NCBI RefSeq assembly: GCF_025629245.1
Contig: NZ_JANZXN010000015.1
Location: forward strand, 62,001-126,000
Direction of reading: 5' to 3'
Source of the DNA: Natronobiforma cellulositropha
GTDB taxonomy: Archaea > Halobacteriota > Halobacteria > Halobacteriales > Natrialbaceae
Length of the DNA stretch: 64,000 nt
A model generated the notes under the pieces. It was not told the DNA's origin. It made no database searches and saw only the letters and a list, made by a program, of their open reading frames with translations. Both the position numbers and the translations under genes were made by a program. Below are positions 433 to 44,402 of this stretch, in pieces; within the stretch, counting starts at the first letter, position 1; each line of letters begins with the position of its first letter.

Positions 433-2527
433 TCTAATCGATCTGTTAAATAATGGCGATAATGTCCCGCTTCAACCCCACAAGGGTTCGTCTGAAACAC
501 GCGTACGCGTATGTGGGATAGTACCCCGACGGGTGCTTCAACCCCACAAGGGTTCGTCTGAAACTGGAAGCGAGATACTCCGACGGTGTAACAACATGCT
601 TCAACCCCACAAGGGTTCGTCTGAAACGATGTCAACGGCGTTGCCACACTCGTCCTCCTCGATCGGCTTCAACCCCACAAGGGTTCGTCTGAAACTGGCG
701 CACTAAGCGCCGCAACCGGCCGTGAGGATGGCTTCAACCCCACAAGGGTTCGTCTGAAACGTGGACGCTTCGGACGCACGAATCCTACGCCGAGCTTCAA
801 CCCCACAAGGGTTCGTCTGAAACCCCGGCCGGATACCAGTCACCGAGAGGCTGGTGGCTTCAACCCCACAAGGGTTCGTCTGAAACAACAGTACGGCGCA
901 TCCGACCTTTTACTCGCAGGACTGCTTCAACCCCACAAGGGTTCGTCTGAAACGGTGAACGCGATCCATCGCGTCACCGAACCCGCGGCGGCTTCAACCC
1001 CACAAGGGTTCGTCTGAAACCGGCCACGATCCGAAGTCCGTCGCTCCCCTCGTACGGGCTTCAACCCCACAAGGGTTCGTCTGAAACTCCCGATCTGGGT
1101 CGTATTCTCCTTCGATCGACGCTTCAACCCCACAAGGGTTCGTCTGAAACGATAACTCCTCCCCAGAGTCGATACCGACCACACAGAGCTTCAACCCCAC
1201 AAGGGTTCGTCTGAAACTCCCGCATCGAGTGCGTCGTAGACGTCCTGGACGCTTCAACCCCACAAGGGTTCGTCTGAAACGCGAGGCCTACGACTTCTTC
1301 GAGGCGAACTCCCAGGCTTCAACCCCACAAGGGTTCGTCTGAAACGCCGAATCATCGGCCACGATTGGTCCAAGAGGGTCGGCTTCAACCCCACAAGGGT
1401 TCGTCTGAAACCGCCGTACGGGGTGACGGACTGAGCCGATGGTGCGAGCTTCAACCCCACAAGGGTTCGTCTGAAACGCGGCCGAGTTGGCCGCACACGC
1501 CCCGCCCCGGATTCGCTTCAACCCCACAAGGGTTCGTCTGAAACCCTCATGTCGAACCCCGCCCGCAGCGGAGAGACGCAGGCTTCAACCCCACAAGGGT
1601 TCGTCTGAAACCTAGAGCCTTGGCACAGCGCGAGGTCCGCGTCCGATGCTTCAACCCCACAAGGGTTCGTCTGAAACAACCAGGCCGCGATGCAGGCAGC
1701 GGCTCAGATTTGGCTTCAACCCCACAAGGGTTCGTCTGAAACTCTACCGTGGTGAATCAGACACCAGTACCGTAGAACGCGCTTCAACCCCACAAGGGTT
1801 CGTCTGAAACTGTTTGCGACCGAGGACGCATCAGTTAAGTGGTTGGTGCTTCAACCCCACAAGGGTTCGTCTGAAACGATGGACGTTGCTCCGTGGTCGA
1901 GTGCATTCCAGCTTCAACCCCACAAGGGTTCGTCTGAAACGGCCGTGATTCCGGGATTCGTCGAACTCGTTGCCCGCTTCAACCCCACAAGGGTTCGTCT
2001 GAAACCGGCTGGTGTCATCAAAGCGGCCGTGAAACAGCTCGCTTCAACCCCACAAGGGTTCGTCTGAAACTCTCTTGGACGTGCGCGCCACGTGGTAGAG
2101 CTTCGCTTCAACCCCACAAGGGTTCGTCTGAAACCGCTCGGTCTCGGGCTGCGTCATCGAGTTGTGCGCTTCAACCCCACAAGGGTTCGTCTGAAACACG
2201 GACCCAACACGCTCGAGTCCCTCGAGCCAGTGGCTTCAACCCCACAAGGGTTCGTCTGAAACTCCATCGAAGCGGGCATACACGTCGTCGTAAACCCGCT
2301 TCAACCCCACAAGGGTTCGTCTGAAACGACGCTCGTCGACGACCTCGATCTCGAGGTCTGGCGCTTCAACCCCACAAGGGTTCGTCTGAAACGCTTCGAC
2401 GGTCGCTAACTCCTGTTGGATTTTGTCTTGGCTTCAACCCCACAAGGGTTCGTCTGAAACCAGGCGAGAGAGCGTGCCCGTGTGGAGATAGAGGTACGCT
2501 TCAACCCCACAAGGGTTCGTCTGAAAC

Positions 2528-2561
2528 AGCCGCGCATCCTCGAGACGGGCGAGCGTCGGCG
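2528..2561 (-). repeat. CRISPR spacer duplicated at 3381-3414 (first copy)
   Basis: This 34-bp spacer, starting AGCCGCGCATCCTCGAGACG on the plus strand, recurs without change at 3381-3414. The spacers on either side of the two copies differ. Confidence 0.95.
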
Positions 2562-3380
2562 GCTTCAACCCCACAAGGGTTCGTCTGAAACGGTCAGCGG
2601 GACCGTATCCGTCCGGGTCCGTGTGGTGCTTCAACCCCACAAGGGTTCGTCTGAAACAGAGCAAAGGCTACCGGACAAGACCGCGCCGAAGAAGCTTCAA
2701 CCCCACAAGGGTTCGTCTGAAACTAGCATTTCCCGTCTTCGGCTATTGCTCAACAAGTGGCTTCAACCCCACAAGGGTTCGTCTGAAACGAGTCTTAGGC
2801 CGTTCCCACCAACCCGGCGAAAGTTGCTTCAACCCCACAAGGGTTCGTCTGAAACGAGAGAGATAGACAAGCCCGTGGATCAACTGACGGGGCTTCAACC
2901 CCACAAGGGTTCGTCTGAAACAAGTTGCTATAGCACTCCTATTGAGCTATGGAATGTGCTTCAACCCCACAAGGGTTCGTCTGAAACACTGTTGCTTGTG
3001 AGTTTAAACCATGAGCGAGACAGCTTCAACCCCACAAGGGTTCGTCTGAAACTGGAACATAAATCACTTCTCGGCCATCGTTGTCCGCGCTTCAACCCCA
3101 CAAGGGTTCGTCTGAAACCGGTTTAACGGGCTAATGCTGGCAGCCCTTGACGACGCTTCAACCCCACAAGGGTTCGTCTGAAACGATAGTACCAAGATTG
3201 CCGACCGTTTGAGTCACGAGCTTCAACCCCACAAGGGTTCGTCTGAAACAACGGCAAAGGATTACCGATTCCTTGCACACAACCCGCTTCAACCCCACAA
3301 GGGTTCGTCTGAAACTAGACTTAGACAGCACCGCTGGACAGTACGCAGACGCTTCAACCCCACAAGGGTTCGTCTGAAAC

Positions 3381-3414
3381 AGCCGCGCATCCTCGAGACG
3401 GGCGAGCGTCGGCG
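3381..3414 (-). repeat. CRISPR spacer duplicated from 2528-2561 (second copy)
   Basis: Identical to the spacer at 2528-2561, thirteen repeat units away. See that entry. Confidence 0.95.
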
Positions 3415-5680
3415 GCTTCAACCCCACAAGGGTTCGTCTGAAACCATCATGGATTCGGGGATTGGAGACGAAACAACGCTTCAACCCCACAAGGGTTCGT
3501 CTGAAACGATACGCCTTAGCAGAGACAAATGCGTATCAGTTGCTTCAACCCCACAAGGGTTCGTCTGAAACAGATGAGGAGAAACACAATGCACACCGAC
3601 ACTGAACTCGCTTCAACCCCACAAGGGTTCGTCTGAAACGATCGCTCCGGCCACGATCGCGAACGTCAGCACGGGCTTCAACCCCACAAGGGTTCGTCTG
3701 AAACGCGCGACGCCCTCCACACGCTTGAGGGGCAACTCGACGCTTCAACCCCACAAGGGTTCGTCTGAAACAAGAACATCCAGGCAGGGATGACCGCGAC
3801 GATCCCGCTTCAACCCCACAAGGGTTCGTCTGAAACTCGCCTCGAGTGCCTGTGTCTCGAGGGCGTCGCCGCGCTTCAACCCCACAAGGGTTCGTCTGAA
3901 ACCGTTTCGTCTGGGGTGTCACGGTGTGTTTCCGGCTGCTTCAACCCCACAAGGGTTCGTCTGAAACTCTGCCACGACGCCGTGTAGCCAAGGTCCTCGA
4001 GCGTTCGCTTCAACCCCACAAGGGTTCGTCTGAAACGATTTCGAACTCCCACGAGACGGTACTCGCAGGACCGCTTCAACCCCACAAGGGTTCGTCTGAA
4101 ACCCGAACTACTGGTTCGATCTTGACACCATTCGAGCTTCAACCCCACAAGGGTTCGTCTGAAACGACTACAACGCAACCGCATGAAACTGTTACGACCG
4201 GAGCTTCAACCCCACAAGGGTTCGTCTGAAACCCCGAAAAACTCAGTCTATATCTGATTCCATTGGGTTGCTTCAACCCCACAAGGGTTCGTCTGAAACT
4301 GCCCCAACGCACAAAAATCCGCCGTCAAACGTACAGCTTCAACCCCACAAGGGTTCGTCTGAAACCCGCCGACCGTCTCGGCGCCCCACTTCGCCGCCTT
4401 GCTTCAACCCCACAAGGGTTCGTCTGAAACCGAGGAGGACGTCGAGGAGGTGCGGTGATGTTGACGCTTCAACCCCACAAGGGTTCGTCTGAAACGATTG
4501 TGACGTTCATGTTATCTGGTGTCCTCCATTGCGCTTCAACCCCACAAGGGTTCGTCTGAAACTGTAATCACTGGCCTTACCCACTCGGAAATAGTCAGCT
4601 TCAACCCCACAAGGGTTCGTCTGAAACGATGTTATAACGGGAAACCCCACTATCACGCAGTAAGGCTTCAACCCCACAAGGGTTCGTCTGAAACGTCGTC
4701 GAGAACGTATTCCAGCTCGTCGTTGATGCTTCAACCCCACAAGGGTTCGTCTGAAACTCGATGATCTTCGAATCGTATTGGTACACTGAAGATGCTTCAA
4801 CCCCACAAGGGTTCGTCTGAAACAACCTCACATCACTGTGAGTAGTTGTCGTATGATTCAGCTTCAACCCCACAAGGGTTCGTCTGAAACGACGTCGAAC
4901 TCGAGACCAAAGCCGACCTTCGCCAGGCTTCAACCCCACAAGGGTTCGTCTGAAACGGGCAAAACAGCGACTGCACAGGTAACCATGACAGAGAGCTTCA
5001 ACCCCACAAGGGTTCGTCTGAAACTAGGGGGGTTGTCCATTTATATATATCGTATGCGTAGCTTCAACCCCACAAGGGTTCGTCTGAAACCATCACTATG
5101 AGTGAGGTTCGAGCATCGGACGTGATGCTTCAACCCCACAAGGGTTCGTCTGAAACGACGGAGGTCCGTTTCGTGACTCGACCGAAGAACGGCTTCAACC
5201 CCACAAGGGTTCGTCTGAAACTCGGAGGGCGATAATGTCCCGGATCAGACTCGCTCAGGCTTCAACCCCACAAGGGTTCGTCTGAAACTCCCCCAGAGGG
5301 TCGCCCTGTCGGGTGGCCTTCTGGCTTCAACCCCACAAGGGTTCGTCTGAAACTTGTCGTATTCCTCACCGTTTTCCCACGGATCGCTTCAACCCCACAA
5401 GGGTTCGTCTGAAACGGGTTGCCTCGCTGCGTCCCCGGAACTCGATGGCTTCGCTTCAACCCCACAAGGGTTCGTCTGAAACTGGGGAGACGACGACGCT
5501 ACTTCCATCAGACTCAAACGCTTCAACCCCACAAGGGTTCGTCTGAAACCACGCTCCCCGATTCTCTGACCGCGTAACGGCTCGAGCTTCAACCCCACAA
5601 GGGTTCGTCTGAAACACCACTCCCCGGCCGTCGAGCCGTCCGACTTGCCCGCTTCAACCCCACAAGGGTTCGTCTGAAAC

Positions 5681-5781: not shown

Positions 5782-6228
5782 TTACTCCAGGAGGTCGAGT
5801 TCGACGAGTTCGAGCGAGCGCTCGAGGTGGCAGACGTCGTGTGGAGGGTCGCCGAGGATGGCGGCGATGCGGTACTCGCGGTCGAAGGTGACGCCGTCGG
5901 GTTCGCAGTACTCGTGGCTGGGACACTCGATGTAGGGGCAGGGTCCCTGGAGGCGGGCTTTGCTCCCGGCGAACGCGCCTTTGGTGGGGACGGCGGCGCG
6001 CGCGGAGACGGGTTCGACCTCGACGGCGCGGACGCCCTCGTCGTGCATGGCACACTCGAGCGTCTGGGCGTTCTCGCGGACCTCGGTGACGCGGTAGCGG
6101 GTGCCCGTCGTGAGGTTGAGACACTGGCTGCGGTAGGGACAGCCGGCGCAGCCGTCGGCTTCACCGTGGTAGACGAACTCGGTGCCGGGGTCGGCCAGAC
6201 GCGTGCCGATCAGGGTGACAGTCGACAT
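5782..6228 (-). CDS. UPF0179 family protein
   Basis: A 148-residue archaeal protein of family UPF0179, recognised from its start MSTVTLIGTRLADPGTEFVY and its two cysteine clusters: CxxCPYxxxC near residues 27-36, and CPYxxCPSHEYC near residues 96-107. The clusters suggest a metal or Fe-S site; the function is unknown. The ATG at 6226-6228 lies 39 bp after the DUF5820 gene on the same strand, so the two are probably co-transcribed. The stop codon is 101 bp from the CRISPR array, which follows in the same orientation. Confidence 0.9.
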   Translation of the reverse strand: MSTVTLIGTRLADPGTEFVYHGEADGCAGCPYRSQCLNLTTGTRYRVTEVRENAQTLECAMHDEGVRAVEVEPVSARAAVPTKGAFAGSKARLQGPCPYIECPSHEYCEPDGVTFDREYRIAAILGDPPHDVCHLERSLELVELDLLE

Positions 6229-6705: not shown

Positions 6706-7260
6706 GGTAGGTCGAACGCGCGCGAGGGCTAAATTCCCGTCGGAGGGGGCGCGCACCCCTCGAGCAGGCGTTTGCAGGGACATTGCTTATATACGGATCG
6801 CGTTGTATGCGTGCACGAGTCACGGTACCAGGGGAGGATAATGCCAAATATGGCCTGTAATCTCTTCCTGATAAATATCTTTTGGGGTTATCCTTAAGTA
6901 GTTGGATTACGCACTCATTAAACACTATCGGTATCCGTCCGACGGACCGATCCACTCCGCGTCAGTCCCCGACGCGATGTCGTCGCACGCTGTTGACCCG
7001 GTCGCTCGTCCAGAGAGTGGTGCTGGTTCACACATGACACGACAACTCATCGCCGCCCGCCGTGATCTGTACTCCCTGGGGCGTCTACTCGCCAGGAGCA
7101 ACGGCTCTCCGTGCCGGCCGCCCGAGAGTGGGGTCGATTCGATGAACTCGCGTGTCGCGACGACGGACCGACCTGACCGACACCGTTCTCGATCGGCGCT
7201 CGATCGGACGACGGCGACGGTGGGGTGCCAGCGGGGGGACCAACAGACAACAACCAAACC
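6706..7260. other. Intergenic region with divergent promoters and a long prkA leader
   Basis: No credible gene in these 555 bp. The left end holds the DUF5820 promoter. AT-rich sequence around 6841-6900 includes a TATA-like ATAAATAT at 6871-6878 facing right. No TATA box lies close to the prkA start at 7261, so the prkA transcript may carry a 5' untranslated region of about 350 nt. An open frame at 6902-7264 ends in an ATGA overlap with prkA, but it is basic and serine/arginine-rich, unlike local proteins. Confidence 0.5.
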
Positions 7261-41836: not shown

Positions 41837-42553
41837 TCACACCGAGAGGCGCTCGAGTCGATCACGCGCACGCGAGAGGGCGGGTTCGTCGCCCTCGCTC
41901 ACCGCCCGGGCGAGGTCTCTCGCCGCCTCGACCAGCGTCCGTGCCGTCTCGGGTGAGACGTCACCCTCGAGCAGCTGGACGCGGGTGACGTGTTCGCCGA
42001 GCAGCGCGAGCGTCGAGCGTTCTTCGGGGGTAACTGCCCGTCCCTCGAGCCAGGTTCTGAGCTCCCGCCGGTAGGCGTCGACCGCGTCGGCGTACGCCAG
42101 GCCCCGGTCCGCTCGCAGCGTCTTCGGGATGGACGCCTCCGGCGGGTACTCACCCTGGTCAGCCTCGCGCAGCAGGCCGAGGAAGTAGAGCGCTTCGTCC
42201 TCGAGCGTCGTCCGCCGTCTGCTGACGGTGTCGGCGACGTACTGGAGTTCCACCGCGGCGAGGTAGGTGTCCTCGAGCGGCTTGAGCGTGCCGCCGCTGA
42301 TGAAGCCTCGCTTTCGAACGTACGCTTTCGCTTCTTCGCGTGCGCGCGAAGCGAGTTCGCTCGTCGAACACTCGTCGACGGCGGCCCGGACGCCGGTGAG
42401 GTCGAACGGCGTCTCGAGGTCTGTGTGTTCGGTCGGTTCGTCGACGCCGACGCTGCGGAGGCTGCCACAGGCGGGACAGCCGACACTGCCGGTCTCGTAG
42501 TACGACCAGCGAGTACCACACTCGGTACACGAGCGTTCGCCCCGAATCTTCAT
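41837..42553 (-). CDS. Zinc-ribbon haloarchaeal protein (DUF7117-type)
   Basis: A 238-residue protein. The N-terminus is a TFIIB-like zinc ribbon, CTECGTRWSYYETGSVGCPACG (CxxC...CxxC). The rest is helical, with SRAREEAKAYVRKRGFISGG, DTYLAAVELQYVADTVSRRR and TPEERSTLALLGEHVTRVQL. I recall this as haloarchaeal DUF7117; the function is unknown. The ATG at 42553 directly precedes the ribbon. Confidence 0.75.
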   Translation of the reverse strand: MKIRGERSCTECGTRWSYYETGSVGCPACGSLRSVGVDEPTEHTDLETPFDLTGVRAAVDECSTSELASRAREEAKAYVRKRGFISGGTLKPLEDTYLAAVELQYVADTVSRRRTTLEDEALYFLGLLREADQGEYPPEASIPKTLRADRGLAYADAVDAYRRELRTWLEGRAVTPEERSTLALLGEHVTRVQLLEGDVSPETARTLVEAARDLARAVSEGDEPALSRARDRLERLSV

Positions 42554-42809
42554 ACGCCACCTACTCGAGAGGTGCAAAAAGGCTCGTCGGTCTCACGGAT
42601 CGCCCGACGCGTCCGAGTCGAGTCTGGAATTTCCGTGCCTCAGTGTCTGTATCGATCGTTCGTGACTAATCTCGCTCGAGCGGGAGTCCGACGGCCACAC
42701 CTGTCACGTTCGATGAAAACCACCGGTACTGAGCCGATACGCGGGGCCTCATGAACGTGCGGCAACTGCAGGCCACACCGCAACCAGTCGAACCGTCTTA
42801 CGGAGAGAT

Positions 42810-43454
42810 ATGTCCCGCCGCCGATTCAGTCGACGGAAGTTCGTGGCCGCAACCGGAACCGCAACCGCCATCGCCCTCGCGGGCTGTGCAGACGAGGGTC
42901 CCGGTGAGGAAGAAGAGGAAGAGCCGGCGAACGGTGTCGAAGAGGAAGAAGAAGAGACGATCGTCGAAGAAGACGACGGCGTTGAAGAGGAAGAAGAAGA
43001 GGAGGACGTCGAGAACGGCGAGCACACGCTGACAGTCACCGTCGAAGACGAAGACGGCGACCCCATCGAGGGTGCCCACGTCAGACTCGAGGGTGACGAC
43101 GACATGCTGGACGACGAGGATGACGAGGACGACGATCCGTTGGCCGACGACGAAGACGACGAGATGGACGACGAGGAGGACGACGACCCGCTGGCTGACG
43201 ACGAAGACGACGAGATGGACGACGAAGACGAGCACGAGGAGGAGACCGACGAGGACGGCGAGGTCGAGTTCACCGAACTCGCCGACGGCGAGTACACCGT
43301 TCACGCCGAGGCCGACGGTTACGAAGACGGGGAGGAGGACGTCGAGATCGACGGTGACGACGAGGAGCTGACGATGACGCTCGAAGCGGAGAACGGTGAC
43401 GACGATGGAGTGACCGACGACAACGGCAACGACGATAACGACGACGGCCTCTAG
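42810..43454 (+). CDS. Acidic Tat lipoprotein with carboxypeptidase-regulatory-like domain
   Basis: A 214-residue protein with a Tat-type signal, SRRRFSRRKFVAATG, and a lipobox ALAGC at about residue 25. It is therefore exported folded and lipid-anchored. After a Glu-rich linker, a beta-sandwich of the carboxypeptidase-regulatory type begins (HTLTVTVEDEDGDPIEGAHV). It is interrupted by a 16-residue acidic unit, DDDPLADDEDDEMDDE, present twice, and resumes at GEVEFTELADGEYTVHAEAD. The C-terminal tail is Asp/Asn-rich. Likely a cell-surface or metal-binding protein. Confidence 0.8.
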   Translation: MSRRRFSRRKFVAATGTATAIALAGCADEGPGEEEEEEPANGVEEEEEETIVEEDDGVEEEEEEEDVENGEHTLTVTVEDEDGDPIEGAHVRLEGDDDMLDDEDDEDDDPLADDEDDEMDDEEDDDPLADDEDDEMDDEDEHEEETDEDGEVEFTELADGEYTVHAEADGYEDGEEDVEIDGDDEELTMTLEAENGDDDGVTDDNGNDDNDDGL

Positions 43455-43516: not shown

Positions 43517-43712
43517 TCCCGTACCGGACGCGGTGTGTCCGACCGAGTCGTTTTTCGTCGAACCTGCCCACAGTGGCTACACCGACGCCGTTCGCACAGC
43601 CTCGACGACGACCCTCGCCCGGCGCACTCGAGGGTGAGAACGAGACGGGGTGGCCGCCGTCGGCGGGCCGTGTGTTCGGATTCGTATCACGTTTTCGGGC
43701 GGTGTCGGTACA

Positions 43713-43718
43713 TTTAAG
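43713..43718 (+). promoter_or_regulatory. TATA box of the candidate small RNA
   Basis: TTTAAG in GTACATTTAAGTT; the expected start, about 25 nt on, falls at 43738-43742, exactly where the first hairpin of the candidate RNA begins. Confidence 0.5.
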
Positions 43719-43739
43719 TTCACCGAGCGAATTTCATCA

Positions 43740-43836
43740 CGTGACGCTTCGCTTTGGAGGGCCGAAGCGTCAGCGGGGACCAATTCAGGGCGGCAAGCAA
43801 CCGTGCGACATTTTTCCGTCGCGCGGTTTGCTTTCC
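43740..43836 (+). ncRNA. Candidate structured non-coding RNA, two hairpins
   Basis: Hairpin 1: TGACGCTTCG (43742-43751) pairs with CGAAGCGTCA (43763-43772). Hairpin 2: AAGCAACCGTGCGAC (43795-43809) pairs with GTCGCGCGGTTTGCTT (43818-43833), with one G-T pair and one bulged T, around the loop ATTTTTCC. A TATA element lies about 25 nt before hairpin 1. It sits in a gene-free gap and matches no RNA family I can name. Confidence 0.5.
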
Positions 43837-43974
43837 TGTTCACGACACTGCCCACCGACGGGTAGCGCTCGAGTTCTGTCCGCCGGGCCGACACCGCACG
43901 CGAGTCACGGCTACGGCCGTCCGTCGTGGGCTAATTGTGCGAGAGCGAACGCATAGAAGGCTAAACATGAACAA

Positions 43975-44080: not shown

Positions 44081-44126
44081 GAATATTTATTAAATTCCTA
44101 CAAGAAGTATGATCGGGACTTACCCA

Positions 44127-44402
44127 ATGTACGACTTGACAGGATTCCAGCGCGACTTACTCTACGTCGTCGCTGGGGAGGACGAACCGCACGGACTGGC
44201 GATCAAAGACCAACTGGAACAGTACTACGAGAAGGAGATCCACCACGGGCGACTCTACCCCAACCTCGATACGCTCGTCGATAAGGGTCTGGTCGAGAAG
44301 GGCCGACGTGACCGGCGGACGAACTTCTACACGATGACGCGGCGTGGACGCCGAGAACTCGAGGCACGCCGCGACTGGGAAGCCCAGTACGTCGACTTGT
44401 AA
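44127..44402 (+). CDS. PadR family transcriptional regulator
   Basis: A 91-residue PadR-type winged-helix protein: MYDLTGFQRDLLYVVAGEDE, GLAIKDQLEQYYEKEIHHGR, LYPNLDTLVDKGLVEKGRRD and NFYTMTRRGRRELEARRDWE. It lacks the C-terminal dimerisation helix of longer PadR members. I choose ATG 44127 because haloarchaeal homologs begin MYDLTGF and the TATA at 44084-44090 predicts a start near 44112; the upstream ATG at 44109 adds six residues and remains possible. Confidence 0.85.
   Translation: MYDLTGFQRDLLYVVAGEDEPHGLAIKDQLEQYYEKEIHHGRLYPNLDTLVDKGLVEKGRRDRRTNFYTMTRRGRRELEARRDWEAQYVDL

Follow-up and report, generated by a model that had tools for sequence, protein, structure and literature searches.

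A near-universal haloarchaeal small RNA gene and its proposed pairing with two-box elements in mRNA 3' untranslated regions

Positions 43713-43841 (plus strand) of a 64,000-nucleotide stretch of the Natronobiforma cellulositropha genome (hereafter referred to as the window) are identified by comparative sequence analysis as a real, conserved noncoding RNA gene, which is near-universal in the order Halobacteriales. The locus is likely to encode a trans-acting small RNA (sRNA) that pairs with two-box sites in the 3' untranslated regions (3'UTRs) of mRNAs, its transcription, the duplex and the effect on the mRNAs being inferred. As the fixed sequence of the sRNA is complementary to repeated tags shortly past the ends of certain genes, it probably controls the messages of these genes by pairing with their tails. 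The core of the sRNA is kept nearly letter for letter across the order and the candidate target grammar can be read from genome sequence alone; if the proposal is true, archaea have a conserved 3'UTR-directed sRNA regulon. The 3'UTR complementarity is an addition to an earlier note on this DNA, in which a small structured RNA transcribed from a promoter of its own had been put forward.

The earlier note had described a TATA box followed by hairpins of 10 bp and 15 bp, and both sequence and fold confirm this arrangement (Table 1), the spacing from TTTAAG (43713-43718) to hairpin 1 being 23 nt. The usual distance between a TATA box and the transcription start is the basis for the predicted start. 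Hairpin 2 is formed by 43795-43809 with 43818-43833 and encloses the T-rich loop ATTTTTCC (43810-43817); its imperfections are limited, as had been noted, to a bulged base and a G-T pair among the 15 pairs. The linker after hairpin 1 starts with GCGGGGACC. The description of the region as a protein-free gap also holds: the ORF lying over the sRNA (43573-43956), which was the only overlapping ORF scanned, has no Pfam match, and no conserved reading frame was found, the conserved core carrying 1-nt indels in relatives and the wobble positions being fixed.

Table 1. Features of the sRNA locus and its conserved neighbours (positions in the window)
Feature	Position	Strand	Basis or remark
TATA box TTTAAGT	43713..43719	+	sequence; TTTAAG-like box at about the same distance in relatives, flanks diverged
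Predicted transcription start, foot of hairpin 1	43740..43742	+	inferred from TATA-to-start distance
Hairpin 1, 5' arm TGACGCTTCG	43742..43751	+	10 bp with the 3' arm
Hairpin 1 loop CTTTGGAGGGC	43752..43762	+	TGGAGGG (43755-43761) complementary to box 2
Hairpin 1, 3' arm CGAAGCGTCA	43763..43772	+	pairs with TGACGCTTCG
CGTCAGCGGGG	43768..43778	+	complementary to box 1 (CCCCGCTGACG) of the 3'UTR element
Remaining linker ACCAATTCAGGGCGGC	43779..43794	+	near-invariant in Natrialbaceae, variable across the order
Hairpin 2, terminator-like, covarying	43795..43833	+	fold and covariation
Pyrimidine-rich tail CTTTCCTGTTC, probable 3' end	43831..43841	+	sequence; conserved in the family only
PadR-like regulator, conserved downstream neighbour	44109..44402	+	PF03551, E 3.9e-17
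DUF7117 protein, conserved upstream neighbour	41837..42577	-	PF23430

The predicted fold of 43713-43836 has an energy of -50.6 kcal/mol as compared to a shuffle mean of -38.0 (z -3.21; 0 of 200 shuffles reaching this energy), and CTT pairs with GGG within the hairpin 1 loop in the lowest-energy fold, leaving three loop bases paired. Among 24 distinct Natrialbaceae sequences, 99.4% of the cells of the whole structure are paired versus 94.1% in shuffles, and double changes occupy 58 cells where shuffles average 15.5. For the whole order, an alignment made with the covariance model, which still contains two 17-bit matches, gave 143 such cells against 32.3. Covariation of both stems, suggested earlier as a check, was found for stem 2, where 11 of 14 pairs show double changes and 98.8% of the cells are paired in the 24 sequences; stem 1 barely varies and is little informative. 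A closing helix proposed by RNAalifold (GCGGGGA/TTCCTGT) was not relied on, because other families have a different 3' tail and, across the order, every other helix is stronger, only 85.8% of its cells being paired. Across 70 aligned loci with diverged flanks, little changes in the TATA-like box, in hairpin 1 or in the linker. Conservation, covariation and a TATA-like box that stays in step with the RNA thus strongly support a small structured RNA under a promoter of its own, and the independent gene, promoter-like box and conserved structure expected of a trans-acting sRNA are all present.

DNA searches located the sRNA in 123 of 125 Natrialbaceae genomes (111/111 of those of good quality), and the covariance model in 383 of 392 genomes of Halobacteriales (343/345 of good quality; 91 of 95 genera). 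The nine genomes of the order without it belong to three families (f2, f9 and f11), and a renewed search of six of them at E 0.5 still yielded none. In a sample of the phylum, 52 of 294 genomes matched, all 52 within the order; Haloferax, Haloquadratum, Haloarcula, Halococcus and Halorubrum are named among the matches listed. Rfam has no match at the sRNA at gathering score, only five far below it with E up to 10.

Sequence invariance was counted in 36 of 42 matches, all 36 from families other than Natrialbaceae, leaving out two 17-bit matches and the Natrialbaceae rows L001, L038, L049 and L068; these copies lean towards Natrialbaceae, as they were found by a model built on that family. GGAGGG of the loop and AGCGGGG are each identical in 36/36 copies, the 3' arm CGAAGCGTC in 35 and the 5' arm GACGCTTCG in 33, while CAATTCAGGGCGGCA of the linker is identical in 12. 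The 3' arm has changed in one copy only (L134), where the 5' arm compensates; this change faces the free spacer of the 3'UTR element described below. The other two changes in the 5' arm leave G-U pairs with the 3' arm kept. The parts that would pair are therefore the frozen ones: the conserved positions of the sRNA coincide with the segments matching the putative boxes, and the variable part of the arm faces the free spacer. As the relevant segments hardly vary, no covariation between the sRNA and its targets is demonstrable.

The loop UGGAGGG and the lower arm and linker CGUCAGCGGGG are complementary, in order, to an element CCCCGCUGACG-N-CCCUCC(A) in 3'UTRs. Judged by eye, this element is made up of the boxes CCCCGCTGACG and CCCTCC(A), separated by a free spacer, and is often repeated. 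A search of the 125 Natrialbaceae genomes with the core GGAGGGCCGAANCGTCAGCGGG, allowing two or fewer mismatches, yielded, on top of a single site in each genome, 33 additional sites spread over 20 genomes, as compared to one site for the reversed core; no fewer than three of these additional sites are extra copies or fragments of the sRNA (G020, G109 and G124). Non-sRNA core matches were placed at 19 loci, comprising 12 intergenic, 6 inside ORFs and 1 unresolved, and all the loci with multiple sites are among the intergenic ones. In these 12 the core is antisense and lies shortly past the stop of a gene, namely gene A in five genera and three others; two of these three other genes face a convergent neighbour, relative to which the core is sense, and convergent genes leave the orientation ambiguous at some loci. 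A protein site on the sense strand, suspected from short copies of the core, was rejected in view of the orientation and the two-box form, which are antisense to genes. Gene A appears by eye to encode a secreted, beta-helix-like protein with a Tat-like signal and has no Pfam match.

Orthologues of gene A, which are related by descent, were found in 110 of the 125 Natrialbaceae genomes, and 74 of their 3'UTRs were analysed (L339 contains runs of N and L386 is only 204 nt); the gene itself had been discovered via the motif in 5 of the 74. The antisense of the core occurs at six or fewer mismatches in 32/74 of these 3'UTRs and the sense in none, the reversed controls giving 2 and 0. The predicted duplex with the sRNA has a z below -2 relative to shuffles in 65 of the 74 (mean -4.25) and below -4 in 42, versus 4/74 below -2 for each of the reversed and the reverse-complemented sRNA. 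A control set of 269 other 3'UTRs, taken from 60 of 119 loci with those overlapping the sRNA core excluded, averages a z of -0.15; 21 of these 3'UTRs fall below -2 and one falls below -4. The median z for gene A is below -2 in 22 of 26 genera, the signal being absent in the remaining four (g9, g11, g22 and g25). In a count of 7-mers made without any input from the sRNA, the six most widespread in the gene A 3'UTRs are all antisense to it, GCTGACG being present in 59/74 UTRs and 22/26 genera. In the genome to which the window belongs, CCCCGCTGACGACGACCCCTCCC, the single element of the gene A 3'UTR and with both boxes intact, lies 29 nt past the stop; it has 7 mismatches to the one-block core, a duplex energy of -36.9 kcal/mol and a genus median z of -2.9. 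Conserved complementarity to mRNAs encoded elsewhere, as a trans-acting sRNA would require, is thus found.

Beyond this family, the pattern CCGCTGACG-N0-5-CCCTCC, whose spacer excludes the sRNA itself, is present in 166 of 392 genomes, with 116 matches versus 25 for the reversed control in 96 Natrialbaceae genomes and 165 versus 61 in 296 others. Twenty two-box regions were picked by hand from the matches, favouring tandem or long ones. A same-strand ORF ends at most 161 nt before the site in 13 of them (L425-L429, L432-L434, L436, L438, L441, L442 and L444), although this count has no control and some ORF calls are weak; two sites (L439 and L440) lie inside genes and five regions (L430, L431, L435, L437 and L443) are unresolved. 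Several of the proteins preceding the sites look exported or membrane-bound, by eye only. Tandem arrays outside Natrialbaceae occur in families f4 and f5. In three genomes of f5, genes for exported proteins that resemble SIMPL-domain proteins by eye (L425, L434 and L438) are followed by the element, partly in tandem. In L430 (approximately 2300-2720), from a genome of the Haloferax genus, at least ten degenerate copies were seen by eye in a row.

The mechanism proposed from these observations involves an sRNA of about 100 nt, in which hairpin 1 with the fixed loop UGGAGGG would be followed by the fixed single strand AGCGGGG, and hairpin 2 with the pyrimidine tail would form the 3' end. A target 3'UTR would carry one to about ten elements, each consisting of CCCCGCUGACG, 0-8 nt and CCCUCC(A). 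Pairing of box 1 with CGUCAGCGGGG would open hairpin 1 in its lower part, and box 2 would pair with the loop of this hairpin; the upper stem might remain closed, the reason proposed for the free spacer of the element. Pairing at the tail would then alter the decay of the mRNA, more likely by shielding its 3' end from 3'-to-5' exonucleases, although the tail might instead be marked for decay. Protection is preferred because an exonuclease route running 3' to 5' exists in haloarchaea, and in view of the positive action of another haloarchaeal sRNA, sRNA132, with a predicted 3'UTR contact. A wider inference, which we favour only slightly over its negation, is that of an ancient order-wide system, wherein a universal sRNA reads, by simultaneous pairing of loop and linker, two-box tags, often tandem, in the 3'UTRs of a changing regulon in which exported and membrane proteins are, by eye, abundant, the tags being gained and lost by tandem duplication with the RNA frozen.

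The two-box element could also be a protein-binding or mRNA 3'-end signal that the sRNA masks or competes for, without a duplex as the main step. In being C-rich, frequently tandem and close behind stop codons, the element has features that processing or binding signals can show, and some site variants break the rules of pairing with the sRNA. However, both boxes match two separate invariant segments of the sRNA in the correct antiparallel order, the signal is missing from the other 3'UTRs (mean z -0.15) and the strict pattern in 0.93 Mb of 8-kb sRNA loci gave 119 matches in 119 loci, all of them the sRNA itself, so this reading is regarded as unlikely. Even less probable is a constitutive structural or housekeeping RNA bound by protein, for which the targets would be incidental. 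Near-universal presence and a 10-bp stem whose near-total invariance exceeds the needs of pairing would fit such a particle, but the segments identical in 36/36 copies are those matching the boxes, no Rfam class matches and complementarity to 16S and 23S rRNA does not exceed chance, the longest exact match being 8, the same as in shuffles, which also led to the rejection of rRNA as a target. An H/ACA or C/D guide RNA finds no support either, with no Rfam match, rRNA complementarity at chance and the characteristic boxes absent by eye, and an anti-Shine-Dalgarno role of GGAGG was discarded on reasoning alone, the fit being limited to 5 nt.

The gene neighbourhood bears on whether the RNA might be the 5' leader or a riboswitch of the PadR gene. 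In the window the sRNA lies between the DUF7117 and PadR genes, with folD and an aminotransferase gene further out. In a survey of 119 named loci, second copies included, PadR is found downstream on the same strand within 1.5 kb in 55 of 95 loci with enough flank; DUF7117, for which 96 loci have enough flank, precedes the sRNA on the other strand in 35. The Haloferax copy L257 has the same gene order, with identities of 81% for PadR, 78% for FolD, 61% for the aminotransferase and 46% for DUF7117. The frequency of the PadR neighbour favours a leader, yet the RNA is not always upstream of PadR: paralogues occur elsewhere, beside a chemotaxis transducer in Haloferax and between BREX genes, and a terminator-like hairpin closes the RNA, the PadR start being 268 nt further. 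This reading is hardly credible, and a trans-acting sRNA that pairs with 3'UTRs remains the preferred one. A conserved 48-residue ORF (about 48-51 residues, ending GWVLEEEHI; for example L316:24-179) was observed within 600 bases upstream in 62 of 112 loci, and this protein was not seen upstream of the sRNA in the window. Between DUF7117 and the sRNA, positions 42810-43454 encode a protein that begins, by eye, like a lipoprotein and contains a long repeat region of extreme acidity.

The architecture of bacterial trans-acting sRNAs, with a 5' hairpin, a single-stranded seed and a terminator-like 3' hairpin, is shared by the sRNA of the window, whereas its proposed sites are 3'UTR elements that are often tandem. 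Animal microRNAs likewise have several short sites for one small RNA per 3'UTR, as proposed here; the two-box geometry differs, and neither processing nor an Argonaute step is implied. If the proposal is true, tags would be gained and lost around a frozen sRNA much as microRNA sites evolve. Nearly 2800 sRNAs are given for Haloferax volcanii in PMC6560208, which also describes sRNA132 as an intergenic haloarchaeal RNA composed of two stems plus a linker; it acts on mRNAs, positively and with a predicted 3'UTR interaction. Unlike the sRNA of the window, sRNA132 is found only in Haloferax, has a pyrimidine-rich linker and has one predicted site instead of two-box arrays (PMC6560208). According to PMC3956466, 22 of 27 H. 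volcanii sRNA genes tested for conservation are confined to that species. Literature searches retrieved no paper with the core sequences as text and none on a haloarchaeal sRNA with multiple UTR sites; for shorter box strings, the titles among the matches listed were unrelated.

Two copies of the sRNA are present in 15/15 genomes searched of genus g70, which is Haloferax to judge by the copies shared with named Haloferax contigs. The second copy adjoins the chemotaxis transducer gene, with a gene resembling FtsZ/CetZ some 6 kb away; the other side is a neighbourhood of CofC, FtsZ/CetZ-like, pdhA-like and TrkA-like genes. This copy is probably hts10 (HVO_2213s) of H. volcanii, on the basis only of gene order in another Haloferax and without a sequence match to 2078656-2078816. 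The gene numbering that links it to HVO_2213s is in part presumed. CetZ1 is HVO_2204 according to PMC10927574. The earlier suggestion of a new haloarchaeal RNA thus stands in that the family is absent from Rfam, and is to be qualified in that a Haloferax paralogue has probably been published. In PMC3956466, hts10 is listed at 161 nt, which is longer than the sRNA of the window, and as present in 18 other haloarchaeal genomes; no target is noted in the sections consulted, and its deletion in H. volcanii caused modest phenotypes. Another copy of the sRNA may remain in that deletion strain. H225.2R, htsf416 and HVO_2908s of H. volcanii, and sRNA_61 and sRNA_83 (PMC12482152), were considered as copies without a sequence basis and nothing is claimed for them.

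Extra copies of the sRNA were observed between pglX and brxA of a BREX defence system in two genomes (L272, approximately 6713-6790; L222, approximately 5967-6060), preceded by the inverted repeat GTTG-TGCG-CAAC; PADLOC calls PglX, BrxA and BrxC in L272, and the L222 genes were assigned by similarity to the L272 proteins. Two genomes (G123 and G124; loci L038 and L068) carry sRNA-like copies with the invariant hairpin 1 and a different linker and 3' hairpin. Elsewhere in the window, a CRISPR array with 80 repeats matching Rfam CRISPR-DR24 occupies positions 469-5680 on the minus strand.
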